A DNA stretch of 15,008 bases, from the NCBI GenBank assembly GCA_029864165.1, contig JAOTTZ010000012.1, positions 1 through 15,008 of the forward strand, read 5' to 3'. Shown one piece after another: positions 1-9,502 of this stretch. The notes below the pieces were generated by a model. That model was given only the letters and a program-made list of their open reading frames with translations. It was not told the DNA's origin and made no database searches. How positions within the stretch are numbered: position 1 is the stretch's first letter; each line of letters begins with the position of its first letter. This DNA is from Burkholderiaceae bacterium. GTDB lineage: Bacteria; Pseudomonadota; Gammaproteobacteria; Burkholderiales; Burkholderiaceae_C. The translations under genes were made by a program, and so were the position numbers.

Positions 1-1917
1 AACAATCGCGTGGTTTTCCTCATCATGCGGCAAGCCGCTGACAAAGCTGCGGTCTACTTTGAGGTTATTGAGCGGCATGCGTTTGAGATAGCTCAGCGAT
101 GAATACCCGGTGCCGAAATCGTCCAAGGAAACCCGCACCCCGTTTTCACGCAATGCATTGAGCGTTGCCATCGTTGCAGCCGTGTTCTCCATCGCGACGC
201 TCTCGGTAATCTCCACTTCGAGCAGACCCGACTCCAATCCAGTCACCGCAAGTGCATCGAGGATCATTTGCACCAAATTAGGATCTTTAAACTGCAGCGG
301 TGAAAGATTGACTGCAACCCGCAGGGGGCGCCCGGCGCGTTGCCAGCCCACCGCGTCAGCGCAAGCCTTGCGCAGCACCCATTGGCCAATGGGCAGAATC
401 AAGCCGCATTCCTCGGCCAGCGGGATGAATTCCAACGGCGGGATCATTCCTCGCACAGGATGATTCCAGCGAATGAGCGCTTCCACCGAGTGAATGTGCC
501 CCGCGGTCACGTCGAGCTGGGGCTGATAAACCAGGCTGAACTCCTGTCGCTCAACAGCCAGACGCAGGCTGGTCTTGAGCTCCATCCGCTGCATGGCGTG
601 CGCAGTCAGCGACGGGCTGTAGAACTGGCAATTGTCCCGGCCCGAGTCCTTGGCGTGGTACATCGCTGTGTCGGCGTGCTTGAGCAGCGTCGCCGCGTCG
701 GCGCCGTCTTCCGGGTAGAGCGCAATGCCGATGCTCGCCGTCAGCGTCACCTCTGTGCCATCGACCACGAAAGGTGCGCGCATCAAATCGTGGACGCGGT
801 GCGCGACGACCAATGCATCGTCCGGCCGCGCAATGCCCAGAATCAACGCAGTGAACTCGTCACCGCCCAGGCGGGCGAGCTCGACCGCCGCCCCGACGTC
901 GGCGGTGCGCGAAACCATGTCGGTCGGTCGCACGCCCATGCGCAGCCGGTCGGCCGCGCTTTGCAGGATCTGGTCGCCCGCGGCGTGCCCCATGGTGTCG
1001 TTGATATTCTTGAAGCCATCAAGATCCAAGAACATGACACTCAACTGAGCACCGACTTGCCGAGCACGTCTGATTTCCCGGTCGACTCCTTCAAGAAAAG
1101 ACTGCCGGTTGGGCAGCCCGGTCAGGCTGTCAAAAAAGGCGAGCCGAGCAATTTTGTGTTCGGCTGATTTGCGTTCCGTGATATCGCGCGACAAAACGAT
1201 GAACCGCGGCTTGAGACCGGGAGCCGTGTCTTTGCGCGCCACAGAAAGTTCGAACCACACGGTGCCATGCGCAAGTTCCAACTCGAACTGCTGGCCTGCC
1301 GACGAGCCGTGTTCATGCGCCTCCTGCAATGCCGACATGCACAGTTGCGCGGCGTCGGGTGGCAGCACTTCGGCAACCGTCTTGCCGATCAAGCTATCTA
1401 CCGACGTGGCGACCAGCTCAGCGCGTGCGCAATGGTAGTCAATGTAGCTACCGTCTATGTCGAGTTCGAACAACAAGTCGGGGATGGCGTTCAGAATAGC
1501 CGCGTTGCGTGCTTCAGCGGCCTGCAGGTCCAGCGAGGCCTGATACCCGCGCAGCAGGTATCTCACCCGATAACCGATCAGCGCCCAGTTGATGGGTTTG
1601 GCGATGTAGTCGGTGGCGCCCGCGTGATAAGCCTGGTCGATCGACTGCACATCTTCCATGCCGGTCACCATCAAGATAGGCAGCAGAGGGCCGACTTCGG
1701 CGCGCAGTGCCGCGCAGACTTCGTATCCACTCAAGTCGGGCATGTCGACGTCGAGCATGACCATGTCAAAGGGCTCGGCGTGGAACTGGGCCAAGGCATC
1801 CACACCGCCGTTGGCCAAGACGACCTCGTAACCAGCCTTGCGCAAGGCCGCGCGCATCAGCAGGCGTGCGCTGGCATCGTCATCGACGACCAGTACCTTG
1901 CTCGGTGCGCTGGTCAT
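1..1917 (-). CDS. Response regulator: receiver-PAS-GGDEF-EAL c-di-GMP enzyme (3' end outside window)
   Basis: The visible 639 residues hold a receiver domain (about 7-125; acidic DDD 12-14, phosphoacceptor D56, T85, K107), a PAS-like segment (about 135-245, ending in DITERK), a GGDEF diguanylate cyclase domain (about 258-425, intact GGDEF at 351-355) and an EAL phosphodiesterase domain from about 430. EAL is at 479-481, N537 in VNLS, E572 in ITES, and [10 protein letters not shown] from D599. The last part of EAL is off the left edge. Both catalytic signatures look intact, so it may make and degrade c-di-GMP; net direction cannot be read from sequence. There is no signal peptide or membrane segment, so it should be cytosolic. 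Its ATG overlaps the stop of the upstream hybrid kinase (ATGA), which makes that kinase the obvious phosphodonor. About 12 extra residues separate RPTD (330-333) from the GGDEF loop compared with the usual spacing. Confidence 0.95.
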
Positions 1918-7492: not shown

Positions 7493-9502
7493 TTAAAACT
7501 TGTAAACCAGCTTGACGCGAACACTGCGTCCGTCTTGCTCAAGCGCGTTCTGCCAGTTGTTATGCGAACCGGGGTACTCGTACCGGGTGTCGAATAAGTT
7601 GTAAATGCCCAAAGACAACTCCAGCCCCTTGGCCAAGGTGTCGGTGCTTAAGTACAGATTCGACAGGGCGTAGCCGTCCAACTCGCTACCGTCCAGGCTC
7701 AGGCGCTTGCTGTCGTAACGCAGTTCGTAGCCAGCGCGCAATCCGGCCACTGGCAAGGGCGCCGACAAGTTGAGCTTACCGAGCCACTTGGGTGAGTTGA
7801 GCAGCCCGCCGTCGCTGACATGGCTAACGTCTTGCACTGACACGCTGCCGCGTAGGCGAACGCCTCGCGCCCAGGTCTTGTCGGCCGACAGCTCTACGCC
7901 TCGGGCTTTCACTTTATCGCCCGACTGATATTGCAGTTTCCCGCTCGCGGGTTCGATGCCAAGCGTCACGAGGTCGCGTATGCTCCACTGGTAGAGTGCA
8001 CCGCGAAGCGTCAGGTTGCTGCCTACCCGATGATCTGCCACGAACTCCAGTGTGTCGATACTTTCGCCCTTCAGCTCCGGGTTGCCAGCCTGTGCGAAAG
8101 TGTCGTAGTCACGCTCAAACGCGTTGGGGGCACGGTGCGCACGGCCGAACAGTGCTTTAAGCGTGGTCGCCGGCGCGGCTTGCCAAATCAGCGCAGCACG
8201 CGGGCTATGCTTGTTGCCAGTGACATTGTTGCGATCGAGCCGCAGGCCCATGGTGGCCGTCAGCGAATCGACGATACGCCATTCGTCCTGAACGTAAAGA
8301 CCCGCACGGTAACCCGAACCGGGAATGACAATACTTGCTGCCGGGTTGGCGGAAAGCAGCAGAGACTGATCGTAGCGTACGTTGTCCTGGATCTCCAGCC
8401 CCAGCATCAGCTTGTGATCCTTCAGTCCGGTGGACAGCAGGCGCACTTCAGCGCCGCGCCAATCGGACGGCGAGAGAACTGTTACTGGCCCGCCTAAGCG
8501 GACGAAGCTGAATTTGGCCCGAAAGCGATCACGGCCAATGAAGAGCCGCCCCGCCACATGCACGGTGTCGTCTGCGTAGCTTTCTTGATACTGGAGCTGT
8601 GCAAGAGCGTAACGGTCTGCCTCGTACTGACCCGGGACCAACGGATCGGAGAAGTAGGCAGCGGTGGGGGCGTCCTTGCGGCGATCGGCGTGCACAAGGT
8701 CGAACGACCATGGGCCGCCGGCTACGCGCGCAAAAAGTTCGTTGTCGTGGTCGCCGTCAAGGCCAACTGCCACACCAGAATGAGCTGCACGCGTTACTGG
8801 GTGCACCCCAAAGTCGTAGAAACGGTCTTCGCCACGCGCTCGCATGCCGGACACCGAAACCAATACGTCGACGCCGTTGTCGAACGCCTTACCCCAGCTC
8901 GCACGCCCTTCGCGCATCGATTCTGGGTGTTGGTAGGTAAGGGCGAGTTCGGTGCCATCGACGTCGGCACCGTCGCGCGTCACCACGTTGACCACGCCAA
9001 ACATTGCATTCTGACCGTACACTGCGCCGCCCGGGCCAGGGATGAATTCGATACGCTCGACCAAATCCATGTCCAGCTGGAAAAGCCTGCCAAAGGGCCC
9101 GCTGTCGTAGGTCGGGGCGTTTACGCGATTACCGTTGATGGTGACCAACACGCGCATGTTGTAGTCGCCCGGCAGCCCCAGCCCGCGCGTGCCGAGGGTA
9201 ACGTATCGGCGATCGTAGGTGGTATACACCCCGGGCAGGCTAGCCACCGCCTCGTCGAGAGTGCGCCAGCCGAAGGCGCGAATCTCGTCACGCGTGATAA
9301 TGCTCACCGCAGCGGCGACCTCGCTTTGTTTTTGCTCGTACTTGGAAGCACCCACCACCTTGATGTCCATCAGTTGTTCCAGACTCAGGTCGGTCAGGTC
9401 CGGCGCAGCGCTGGCGGGGAAAACCGCCGCGAGTGCGACACAAAGCAGCAATCTGTGTTTGCGACTGCCGCGGCGTGGCGCCTGGGTCTTGTATGTGTAC
9501 AT
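7493..9502 (-). CDS. TonB-dependent outer membrane receptor (upstream copy, first gene of operon)
   Basis: This 669-residue paralogue of the next gene has a basic N-region then a signal peptide (LLLCVALAAVFPASA), the DLTDLSLEQLMDIKVVGAS segment, a plug domain at about 57-178 (VTINGNRVN, LVERIEFIPGPGGAVYGQ, FGVVNVVTRDG) and a complete barrel ending in LVYKF. The two copies match closely in the plug and C-terminus and differ more in barrel stretches (for example SFVRLGGPVTVLSPSD here), where ligand-contacting loops lie, so they may bind related but different ligands. No clear Shine-Dalgarno sequence precedes ATG 9502 and no other in-frame start is visible upstream. It is the promoter-proximal gene of the minus-strand operon; the divergent spacer upstream carries several palindromes. 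Confidence 0.95.
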   Translation of the reverse strand: MYTYKTQAPRRGSRKHRLLLCVALAAVFPASAAPDLTDLSLEQLMDIKVVGASKYEQKQSEVAAAVSIITRDEIRAFGWRTLDEAVASLPGVYTTYDRRYVTLGTRGLGLPGDYNMRVLVTINGNRVNAPTYDSGPFGRLFQLDMDLVERIEFIPGPGGAVYGQNAMFGVVNVVTRDGADVDGTELALTYQHPESMREGRASWGKAFDNGVDVLVSVSGMRARGEDRFYDFGVHPVTRAAHSGVAVGLDGDHDNELFARVAGGPWSFDLVHADRRKDAPTAAYFSDPLVPGQYEADRYALAQLQYQESYADDTVHVAGRLFIGRDRFRAKFSFVRLGGPVTVLSPSDWRGAEVRLLSTGLKDHKLMLGLEIQDNVRYDQSLLLSANPAASIVIPGSGYRAGLYVQDEWRIVDSLTATMGLRLDRNNVTGNKHSPRAALIWQAAPATTLKALFGRAHRAPNAFERDYDTFAQAGNPELKGESIDTLEFVADHRVGSNLTLRGALYQWSIRDLVTLGIEPASGKLQYQSGDKVKARGVELSADKTWARGVRLRGSVSVQDVSHVSDGGLLNSPKWLGKLNLSAPLPVAGLRAGYELRYDSKRLSLDGSELDGYALSNLYLSTDTLAKGLELSLGIYNLFDTRYEYPGSHNNWQNALEQDGRSVRVKLVYKF

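Follow-up and report, generated by a model that had tools for sequence, protein, structure and literature searches.

The YfiBNR system of Pseudomonas aeruginosa and the divergent YfiNR systems, in the parts of the literature covered here, combine YfiR with a periplasmic sensor domain on an inner-membrane partner and a cyclic di-GMP (c-di-GMP) output. As described in the covered sections of Malone et al. 2012 (PMC3375315), the YfiR-YfiN core is modular and can be coupled to GGDEF-EAL, HPT or kinase outputs, and almost all divergent operons lack YfiB; the word TonB is absent from the main text of that paper, with supplementary Table S4 outside this statement. In the covered parts of the work on the YfiB-YfiR complex (PMC4887326, PMC4655355), the outer-membrane partner grips YfiR, and in one structure hydrophobic residues of the YfiB N-terminal linker occupy a C-terminal pocket of YfiR. 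HmsCDE is described in the covered part of PMC5550408 as a tripartite c-di-GMP system, and the Pfam family carries the name YfiR/HmsC-like. Here we describe a related operon from a Burkholderiaceae bacterium, found on a window of 15,008 bp that represents the entire contig C97 (JAOTTZ010000012.1) of a fragmented 2.65-Mb assembly. Its two TonB-dependent receptors carry a conserved tail ahead of the putative TonB box, and a microprotein encoded next to YfiR repeats the first half of that tail. On balance, sequence comparisons suggest that the operon probably encodes a trans-envelope relay, with the receptor tail docked on YfiR in the place of YfiB and the microprotein acting as a co-translated free copy of the tail.

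The window shares YfiR, the sensor domain and a predicted c-di-GMP output with YfiBNR and divergent YfiNR. Unlike YfiBNR, it has no YfiB beside YfiR, carries tail-bearing TonB receptors instead and adds the microprotein; where the partner in the YfiB-YfiR complex is an OmpA-like lipoprotein, here it may be the tail of a TonB receptor. Unlike YfiN, in which GGDEF is fused to CHASE8-HAMP, the window has a kinase, with GGDEF-EAL on a separate protein (the PAS sensor domain of the Malone paper is presumably the Pfam CHASE8 domain). Classical TonB signaling works through an STN domain whose target is an anti-sigma factor. The locus resembles FecA/FoxA-type cell-surface signaling (e.g., the covered part of PMC11637429) in that a TonB receptor would signal inward through a membrane regulator. 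Unlike that type, the receptors of the window have a tail of ∼20 residues and are accompanied by YfiR and a kinase; the Pfam scan listed no STN domain in either receptor, and neither an anti-sigma regulator nor an extracytoplasmic function (ECF) sigma factor among the 17 open reading frames (ORFs) of the window that it covered.

The kinase output and the missing YfiB are already known from divergent Yfi systems and are not new. New, as far as the literature covered extends, are the conserved receptor tail before the putative TonB box and the microprotein repeating its first half. Among titles and the starts of abstracts, a set with few subscription journals and no bioRxiv preprints, no tie of YfiR to TonB receptors and no description of the tail or the microprotein was found; a few of the papers contain both terms, and the covered parts of PMC9611778, PMC3240657 and PMC8919034 hold no link between YfiR and TonB receptors.

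Organization of the operon

Six minus-strand genes make up the operon, in transcription order receptor 1, receptor 2, an 87-amino-acid ORF, YfiR, a CHASE8 kinase and a GGDEF-EAL regulator. They are spaced by gaps of 14 and 9 bp followed by overlaps of 11 (given the start codon GTG 5185 for YfiR), 4 and 4 bp. ORF and Pfam analyses confirmed this layout, which had been read in the same way by an initial annotation made from the sequence of the window; its count of six included the 87-amino-acid ORF but left it unnamed, yet this is a conserved gene and the most interesting of the operon.

Receptor 1 (positions 7493 to 9502; 669 amino acids) consists of a plug and a β-barrel and is BtuB/Cir-like according to Pfam and AlphaFold; its model has a mean predicted local distance difference test (pLDDT) score of 89.7, and the top PDB fold matches are BtuB. 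Its tail motif, DLTDLSLEQLMDIKVVGASKYEQK (positions 9329 to 9400), comprises a helix-like half followed by a TonB-box-like half. Receptor 2 (positions 5448 to 7478; 676 amino acids; Pfam) shares 60% identity with receptor 1 and has its tail motif at positions 7287 to 7358. The two tails were recovered with E values of 1.1e−12 and 2.2e−10, respectively, by a profile to which both segments belong. The microprotein gene (positions 5175 to 5438) encodes a signal-peptide-like start (identified by eye), a single 18-residue motif and a variable tail; the motif, SLKQLLRLPLDCLLQLEL (positions 5271 to 5324), resembles the first, helix-like part of the receptor tails.

YfiR (positions 4655 to 5185; PF13689, DUF4154) scored 138.8 bits in Pfam, and a profile from the three YfiR proteins of the source genome matched solved YfiR chains (E value, 1.4e−8). 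The 11-bp overlap with the microprotein stop follows from taking GTG 5185 as the start, and the YfiR reading frame stays open up to 5218. The next gene (positions 1914 to 4658; Pfam) encodes a 914-amino-acid hybrid histidine kinase with the order CHASE8-HAMP-HisKA-HATPase-REC-REC-Hpt, in which CHASE8 scored 65.5 bits. The last encodes a response regulator, REC-PAS-GGDEF-EAL by Pfam and tree placement, with 639 residues before the contig end (positions 1 to 1917); the window covers the contig in full, and its first base therefore cuts the EAL domain. Motifs are intact in the kinase (SHEIRTP, two receiver Asp sites and Hpt AHALKSS) and in the visible part of the regulator (REC Asp56, GGDEF, EALIRW and DDFGTG), and the phosphorelay set of HisKA, HATPase, REC, Hpt and partner REC is present with phosphorylatable residues. 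The claim of intact catalytic residues in the initial annotation holds for the visible sequence; the EAL domain is cut at the contig end.

Conservation of the gene order

With YfiR alone as bait, 80 loci were collected using two YfiR peptide patterns, a biased set that includes close relatives; neighboring domains were called with profiles seeded by the proteins of the window, and six proteins were checked by Pfam. In 69 of the 80 loci, from several phyla, a receptor lay immediately upstream of YfiR on the same strand, while eight had one elsewhere within 8 kb and three had none. Four of the 69 upstream receptors have a frame of <600 amino acids (L071, L080, L109 and L113), one of just 54. A CHASE8 protein followed YfiR directly in 72 of the 80 loci. 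All three YfiR (DUF4154) genes of the source genome adjoin its three CHASE8 genes, on contigs C97, C82 and C15. The order on C82 is receptor-YfiR-CHASE8 kinase, and on C15 it is receptor-small ORF-YfiR-CHASE8, after which the contig ends; no GGDEF or EAL domain was detected on C82. Among 15 YfiR-bearing genomes, all 25 CHASE8 matches (13 genomes) were placed by eye at ≤∼7 kb from YfiR.

The initial annotation had proposed a relay from receptor through YfiR to the kinase and had left it dependent on conserved co-occurrence in relatives. The order does recur, as the 69 loci demonstrate, and single-chain fusions of the two cytosolic components exist (see below), so that the route itself is well supported and the interpretation as a whole partly so; the tail motif and the microprotein had escaped it.

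Variations on the order were also seen. In Ectothiorhodospira (L049 and L051 to L054), the same kinase-regulator pair is present with a tail-motif receptor downstream of the regulator, and fewer kinase receivers were found. The order at L202, L203 and L204 is CHASE8-GGDEF, receptor, YfiR, and in the receptors there an insertion appears to part the helix half of the tail from its TonB-box half, giving a variant form. Genomes G050 and G592 carry seven and four copies of YfiR, respectively, with several tail-bearing receptors.

Receptor tail motif

In YfiR-linked receptors, the signal peptide is followed directly by the motif form DLTxLSLEELLxVEVxSASK. The second half of this motif can be aligned with the N-termini of Cir and BtuB chains, where we take the TonB box of these proteins to lie; the first half has no counterpart there. 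A 24-residue profile restricted to the tail, with plug and barrel excluded, was built from 31 tail segments including those of the source genome. It gave 48 matches in 200 genomes of the order, and 45 of these lay within 5 kb of YfiR, where random placement would put ∼0.3 matches. With the source genome left out, 41 of 44 matches did so. A position-specific scoring matrix (PSSM) built from loci L036 to L115 was applied to 66 Plug matches from three genomes, one YfiR-far row having no scorable N-terminus; it separated 14 YfiR-near from 52 other receptors with an area under the curve of 0.975, a value to be read, like the counts from the tail profile above and the microprotein profile below, with a possible training/test overlap, as the genomes of these loci may recur among the test genomes. 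Scores of >10 bits were reached by 13/14 YfiR-near receptors versus 1/52 others.

AlphaFold models the plug and barrel of receptor 1 with confidence, but residues 28 to 46, within which the first and conserved part of the tail lies, have a pLDDT of <50. L44 in this stretch is invariant across 41/41 aligned receptors. The tail is conserved yet unpacked in the model, as would be expected of a docking segment. The YfiB-binding pocket of YfiR is hydrophobic at position 169 in 77/84, at 176 in 83/84 and at 181 in 84/84 sequences.

Among the matches listed, an OmpA-like gene of the YfiB kind lay within 5 kb of 0/38 tail-bearing YfiR versus 6/27 tail-less YfiR (Fisher P = 0.004); this comparison leaves out the source genome, is uncorrected for genome relatedness and relies on YfiR contigs assigned by eye, the six neighbors have E values of ≤9.1e−18, and matches weaker than ∼8e−12 are partly covered, as are those of genomes G245, G492 and G436. 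The source genome has three OmpA matches, none on its three YfiR contigs, in an assembly that is 88% complete and in which C15 ends soon after YfiR.

Two isolated occurrences of the tail were recorded. The tail-bearing receptor at G050 1819838 has no YfiR within 30 kb. On contig C15, a stop-terminated 48-amino-acid receptor N-terminus with the tail motif (L004 2 to 148, plus strand), perhaps a receptor remnant, lies upstream of an intact receptor.

Microprotein

Twelve loci (the window, C15 and ten of the 80, among them L079 from Azohydromonas lata NBRC 102462) hold a short ORF between receptor and YfiR, each with a signal-peptide-like start, the motif form TLxxLLRLPLEQLLQLEI and a variable tail. 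A receptor-trained PSSM, blind to microproteins, was applied to 8,403 small ORFs; its nine best-ranked ORFs all belong to the 12, and a further two of the 12 are among the best 14. In a set of 5.8 billion proteins, a profile search limited to the 7,995 candidates with the most shared words returned 92 matches at E ≤ 0.01, training members included. A motif expression fits 87 of the 92; none has a Pfam domain, and those with names are called hypothetical. When the two halves of the tail were scored separately, the helix half was above the 99th percentile of shuffles in 92/92 microprotein matches, whereas the TonB-box half exceeded 5 bits in 0/92 versus 77/82 receptors, the receptor scores coming mostly from training rows.

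A microprotein-only profile run over 399 genomes of the family gave 11 matches: seven microproteins, all between a receptor and YfiR; three receptor N-termini, all directly upstream of YfiR; and one unrelated sequence. The seven are the source genome's two and five (L189 to L193) that share motif letters with training members (L037, L044, L079, L042 and L036) and look like the same species; the matched stretch of one of the seven contains a TGA. The three receptors are independent evidence, as a receptor-blind profile picked YfiR-linked receptors.

A possible YfiR start overlaps the microprotein stop in all 12 loci, by 11 bp in eight and 4 bp in four, and most of these loci offer alternative YfiR start codons as well. 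This overlap suggests that translation of the two genes may be coupled. A chance ORF was ruled out by the motif ranking, the database relatives and the start/stop overlap. A single chain of microprotein and YfiR was rejected, since the frames differ in 16 of 17 loci, the 17th (L045) being unmatched by the pattern of the script.

Kinase and predicted c-di-GMP output

The proteins after YfiR differ in their output. Of the 80 loci, 24 had CHASE8-GGDEF(-EAL), 19 had a kinase with a separate REC-GGDEF-EAL protein as in the window, and seven had the kinase and REC-GGDEF-EAL fused into a single chain. CHASE8 with other or interrupted output followed in five, and no CHASE8 was detected directly after YfiR in eight (two at a contig end). 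The fused chains, six from Methylomonas and one from Nitrosomonas, are 1,637 to 1,714 amino acids long and keep the domain order of the last two genes of the window, with no PAS listed by Pfam in the two scanned. In the GGDEF-EAL tree, the fused proteins form one clade, and the window regulator belongs to a supported 16-member clade drawn from Burkholderiales and Ectothiorhodospira. These natural fusions provide the best sequence evidence that the kinase would signal to the GGDEF-EAL regulator.

A different fusion is present at L187 (15042 to 17636, minus strand; genome G050), where a YfiR domain and a histidine kinase share one 864-amino-acid chain. It is laid out as YfiR, a long coiled-coil-like stretch and a hydrophobic segment (both by eye), HisKA, HATPase and REC, with no CHASE8 by Pfam.

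Proposed mechanism and alternatives

Gene content, intact residues, gene order, fusions, the association of the motif with YfiR, and the conservation and tail likeness of the microprotein are computed observations. From them we infer each step of binding, secretion, phosphotransfer and output, and its direction, as follows. The two TonB receptors would present a short periplasmic tail just before the TonB box, and this tail would dock YfiR, taking the outer-membrane role that YfiB has in YfiBNR. YfiR free of the receptor would bind the CHASE8 domain of the kinase, which stands in for YfiN, and repress it. A shift in the ligand or TonB state of the receptor would change the share of YfiR that is held and with it the activity of the kinase, and phosphate could then travel from HisKA through REC and Hpt until it reaches REC Asp56 in the GGDEF-EAL protein, with a change in c-di-GMP as the result. 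The 87-amino-acid product would be secreted as a free copy of the part of the tail that docks, lacking the TonB-box half, and its translation would keep pace with that of YfiR. It would most likely occupy YfiR independently of TonB and set a threshold, as an anti-repressor or as a competitor of the receptors.

Several results weigh against this relay. The link between tail and YfiR is not universal: three of the 48 tail matches have no YfiR within 5 kb, one of them in the YfiR-less genome G059, and a tail match lies within 5 kb of only 40/68 YfiR genes, leaving 28 without. One YfiR-near receptor scored just −3.9 bits in the PSSM test, its motif being split by an insertion (by eye). In the YfiR pocket, position 166 is hydrophobic in just 58/84 sequences and P178 is replaced by Ser in 74/84, and 21 of the 27 tail-less YfiR (source genome excluded) have no OmpA neighbor among the matches listed. 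The microprotein is narrow in range, with seven copies in 6/399 genomes, and its AlphaFold model is of low confidence (pLDDT, 66). At 17/80 loci, a kinase follows YfiR with no REC-GGDEF protein in reach (five near a contig end). The clustering of YfiR-near receptors, taken up below with common descent, belongs on the same side.

The microprotein gene could instead act as a translational leader of yfiR, with a functionless peptide as its product, or be what remains of a decayed receptor, an explanation that we regard as unlikely. The stop/start overlap at all 12 loci speaks for it, tandem and truncated receptors exist (window; L004 2 to 148), and the signal peptide and tail are barely constrained, with ratios of nonsynonymous to synonymous polymorphism (pN/pS) of 0.91 and 0.93. 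The motif alone is constrained, with a pN/pS of 0.46 that is biased low because the loci were chosen for having the motif, and it is common to the 92 database matches; decay, moreover, is not expected to remove just the TonB-box half every time.

Common descent offers an unlikely account of the tail itself, as the mark of a receptor subfamily that has stayed with YfiR operons and has a longer TonB box without contacting YfiR. In the plug tree, for which 65 of the 66 rows were used and one was too short, YfiR-near receptors cluster (3 changes versus 13 in shuffles) and a single clade of them is not rejected (approximately unbiased test, P = 0.066); these receptors are related to one another, and therefore descent may explain part of the motif conservation. 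The alignment of the second half of the motif with Cir and BtuB N-termini points the same way. Against this stand the conservation of a tail that is unpacked in the model and the microprotein, which retains the first half in 92/92 matches with no plug, barrel or TonB-box half. In addition, receptors adjacent in the tree (with modest support) that have no YfiR within 4.5 kb (G011 855732, 1345122 and 1347217; G050 2012945 and 2015930) score −10 to −17 bits.

It is rather improbable that the partner of tail and microprotein is not YfiR but the CHASE8 domain, TonB or some further protein of the envelope. CHASE8 is as constant a neighbor as the receptor, but forms of the motif occur at the YfiR loci L077, L090, L100 and L107, where no CHASE8 was detected directly after YfiR by a profile that may overlook divergent members, and the outer-membrane partner in YfiBNR binds YfiR in the covered parts of the structural studies (PMC4887326, PMC4655355). 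The plug and barrel of the receptors appear complete, as in ordinary importers of nutrients, but it is very unlikely that they are simply co-regulated with a YfiR-kinase system that works independently and exchanges no signal with them: the adjacency in 69 of 80 loci over several phyla and the association of motif and YfiR exceed a chance neighborhood.

Neighboring genes

Divergent from the operon, on the plus strand at positions 9554 to 11299, the window carries a GNAT acetyltransferase gene and an SMP-30/gluconolactonase-like gene. A run of toxin-antitoxin-like genes follows at positions 11454 to 14496 and includes PemK/MazF-like (11714 to 12046), DUF5615 (12823 to 13149), HicA-like (13621 to 13866; below the cut-off) and BrnA-like (14077 to 14496) genes.

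Implications

The relay proposed for the window may extend further, although we advance this more tentatively. In many YfiR systems, the true input at the outer membrane could come from a widespread class of TonB receptors that dock YfiR through a linear tail. In some Burkholderiales, this tail could have become detached as a microprotein, secreted and coupled in translation, that titrates YfiR as a free-peptide anti-repressor of a trans-envelope c-di-GMP relay. The absence of YfiB from divergent Yfi operons leaves their route of sensing open, and the tail motif would be a specific and widely conserved answer. If this is true, TonB receptors would feed into the c-di-GMP decisions of many environmental bacteria by a contact distinct from STN, and the microproteins would form a family of natural competitors of the contact between tail and YfiR.

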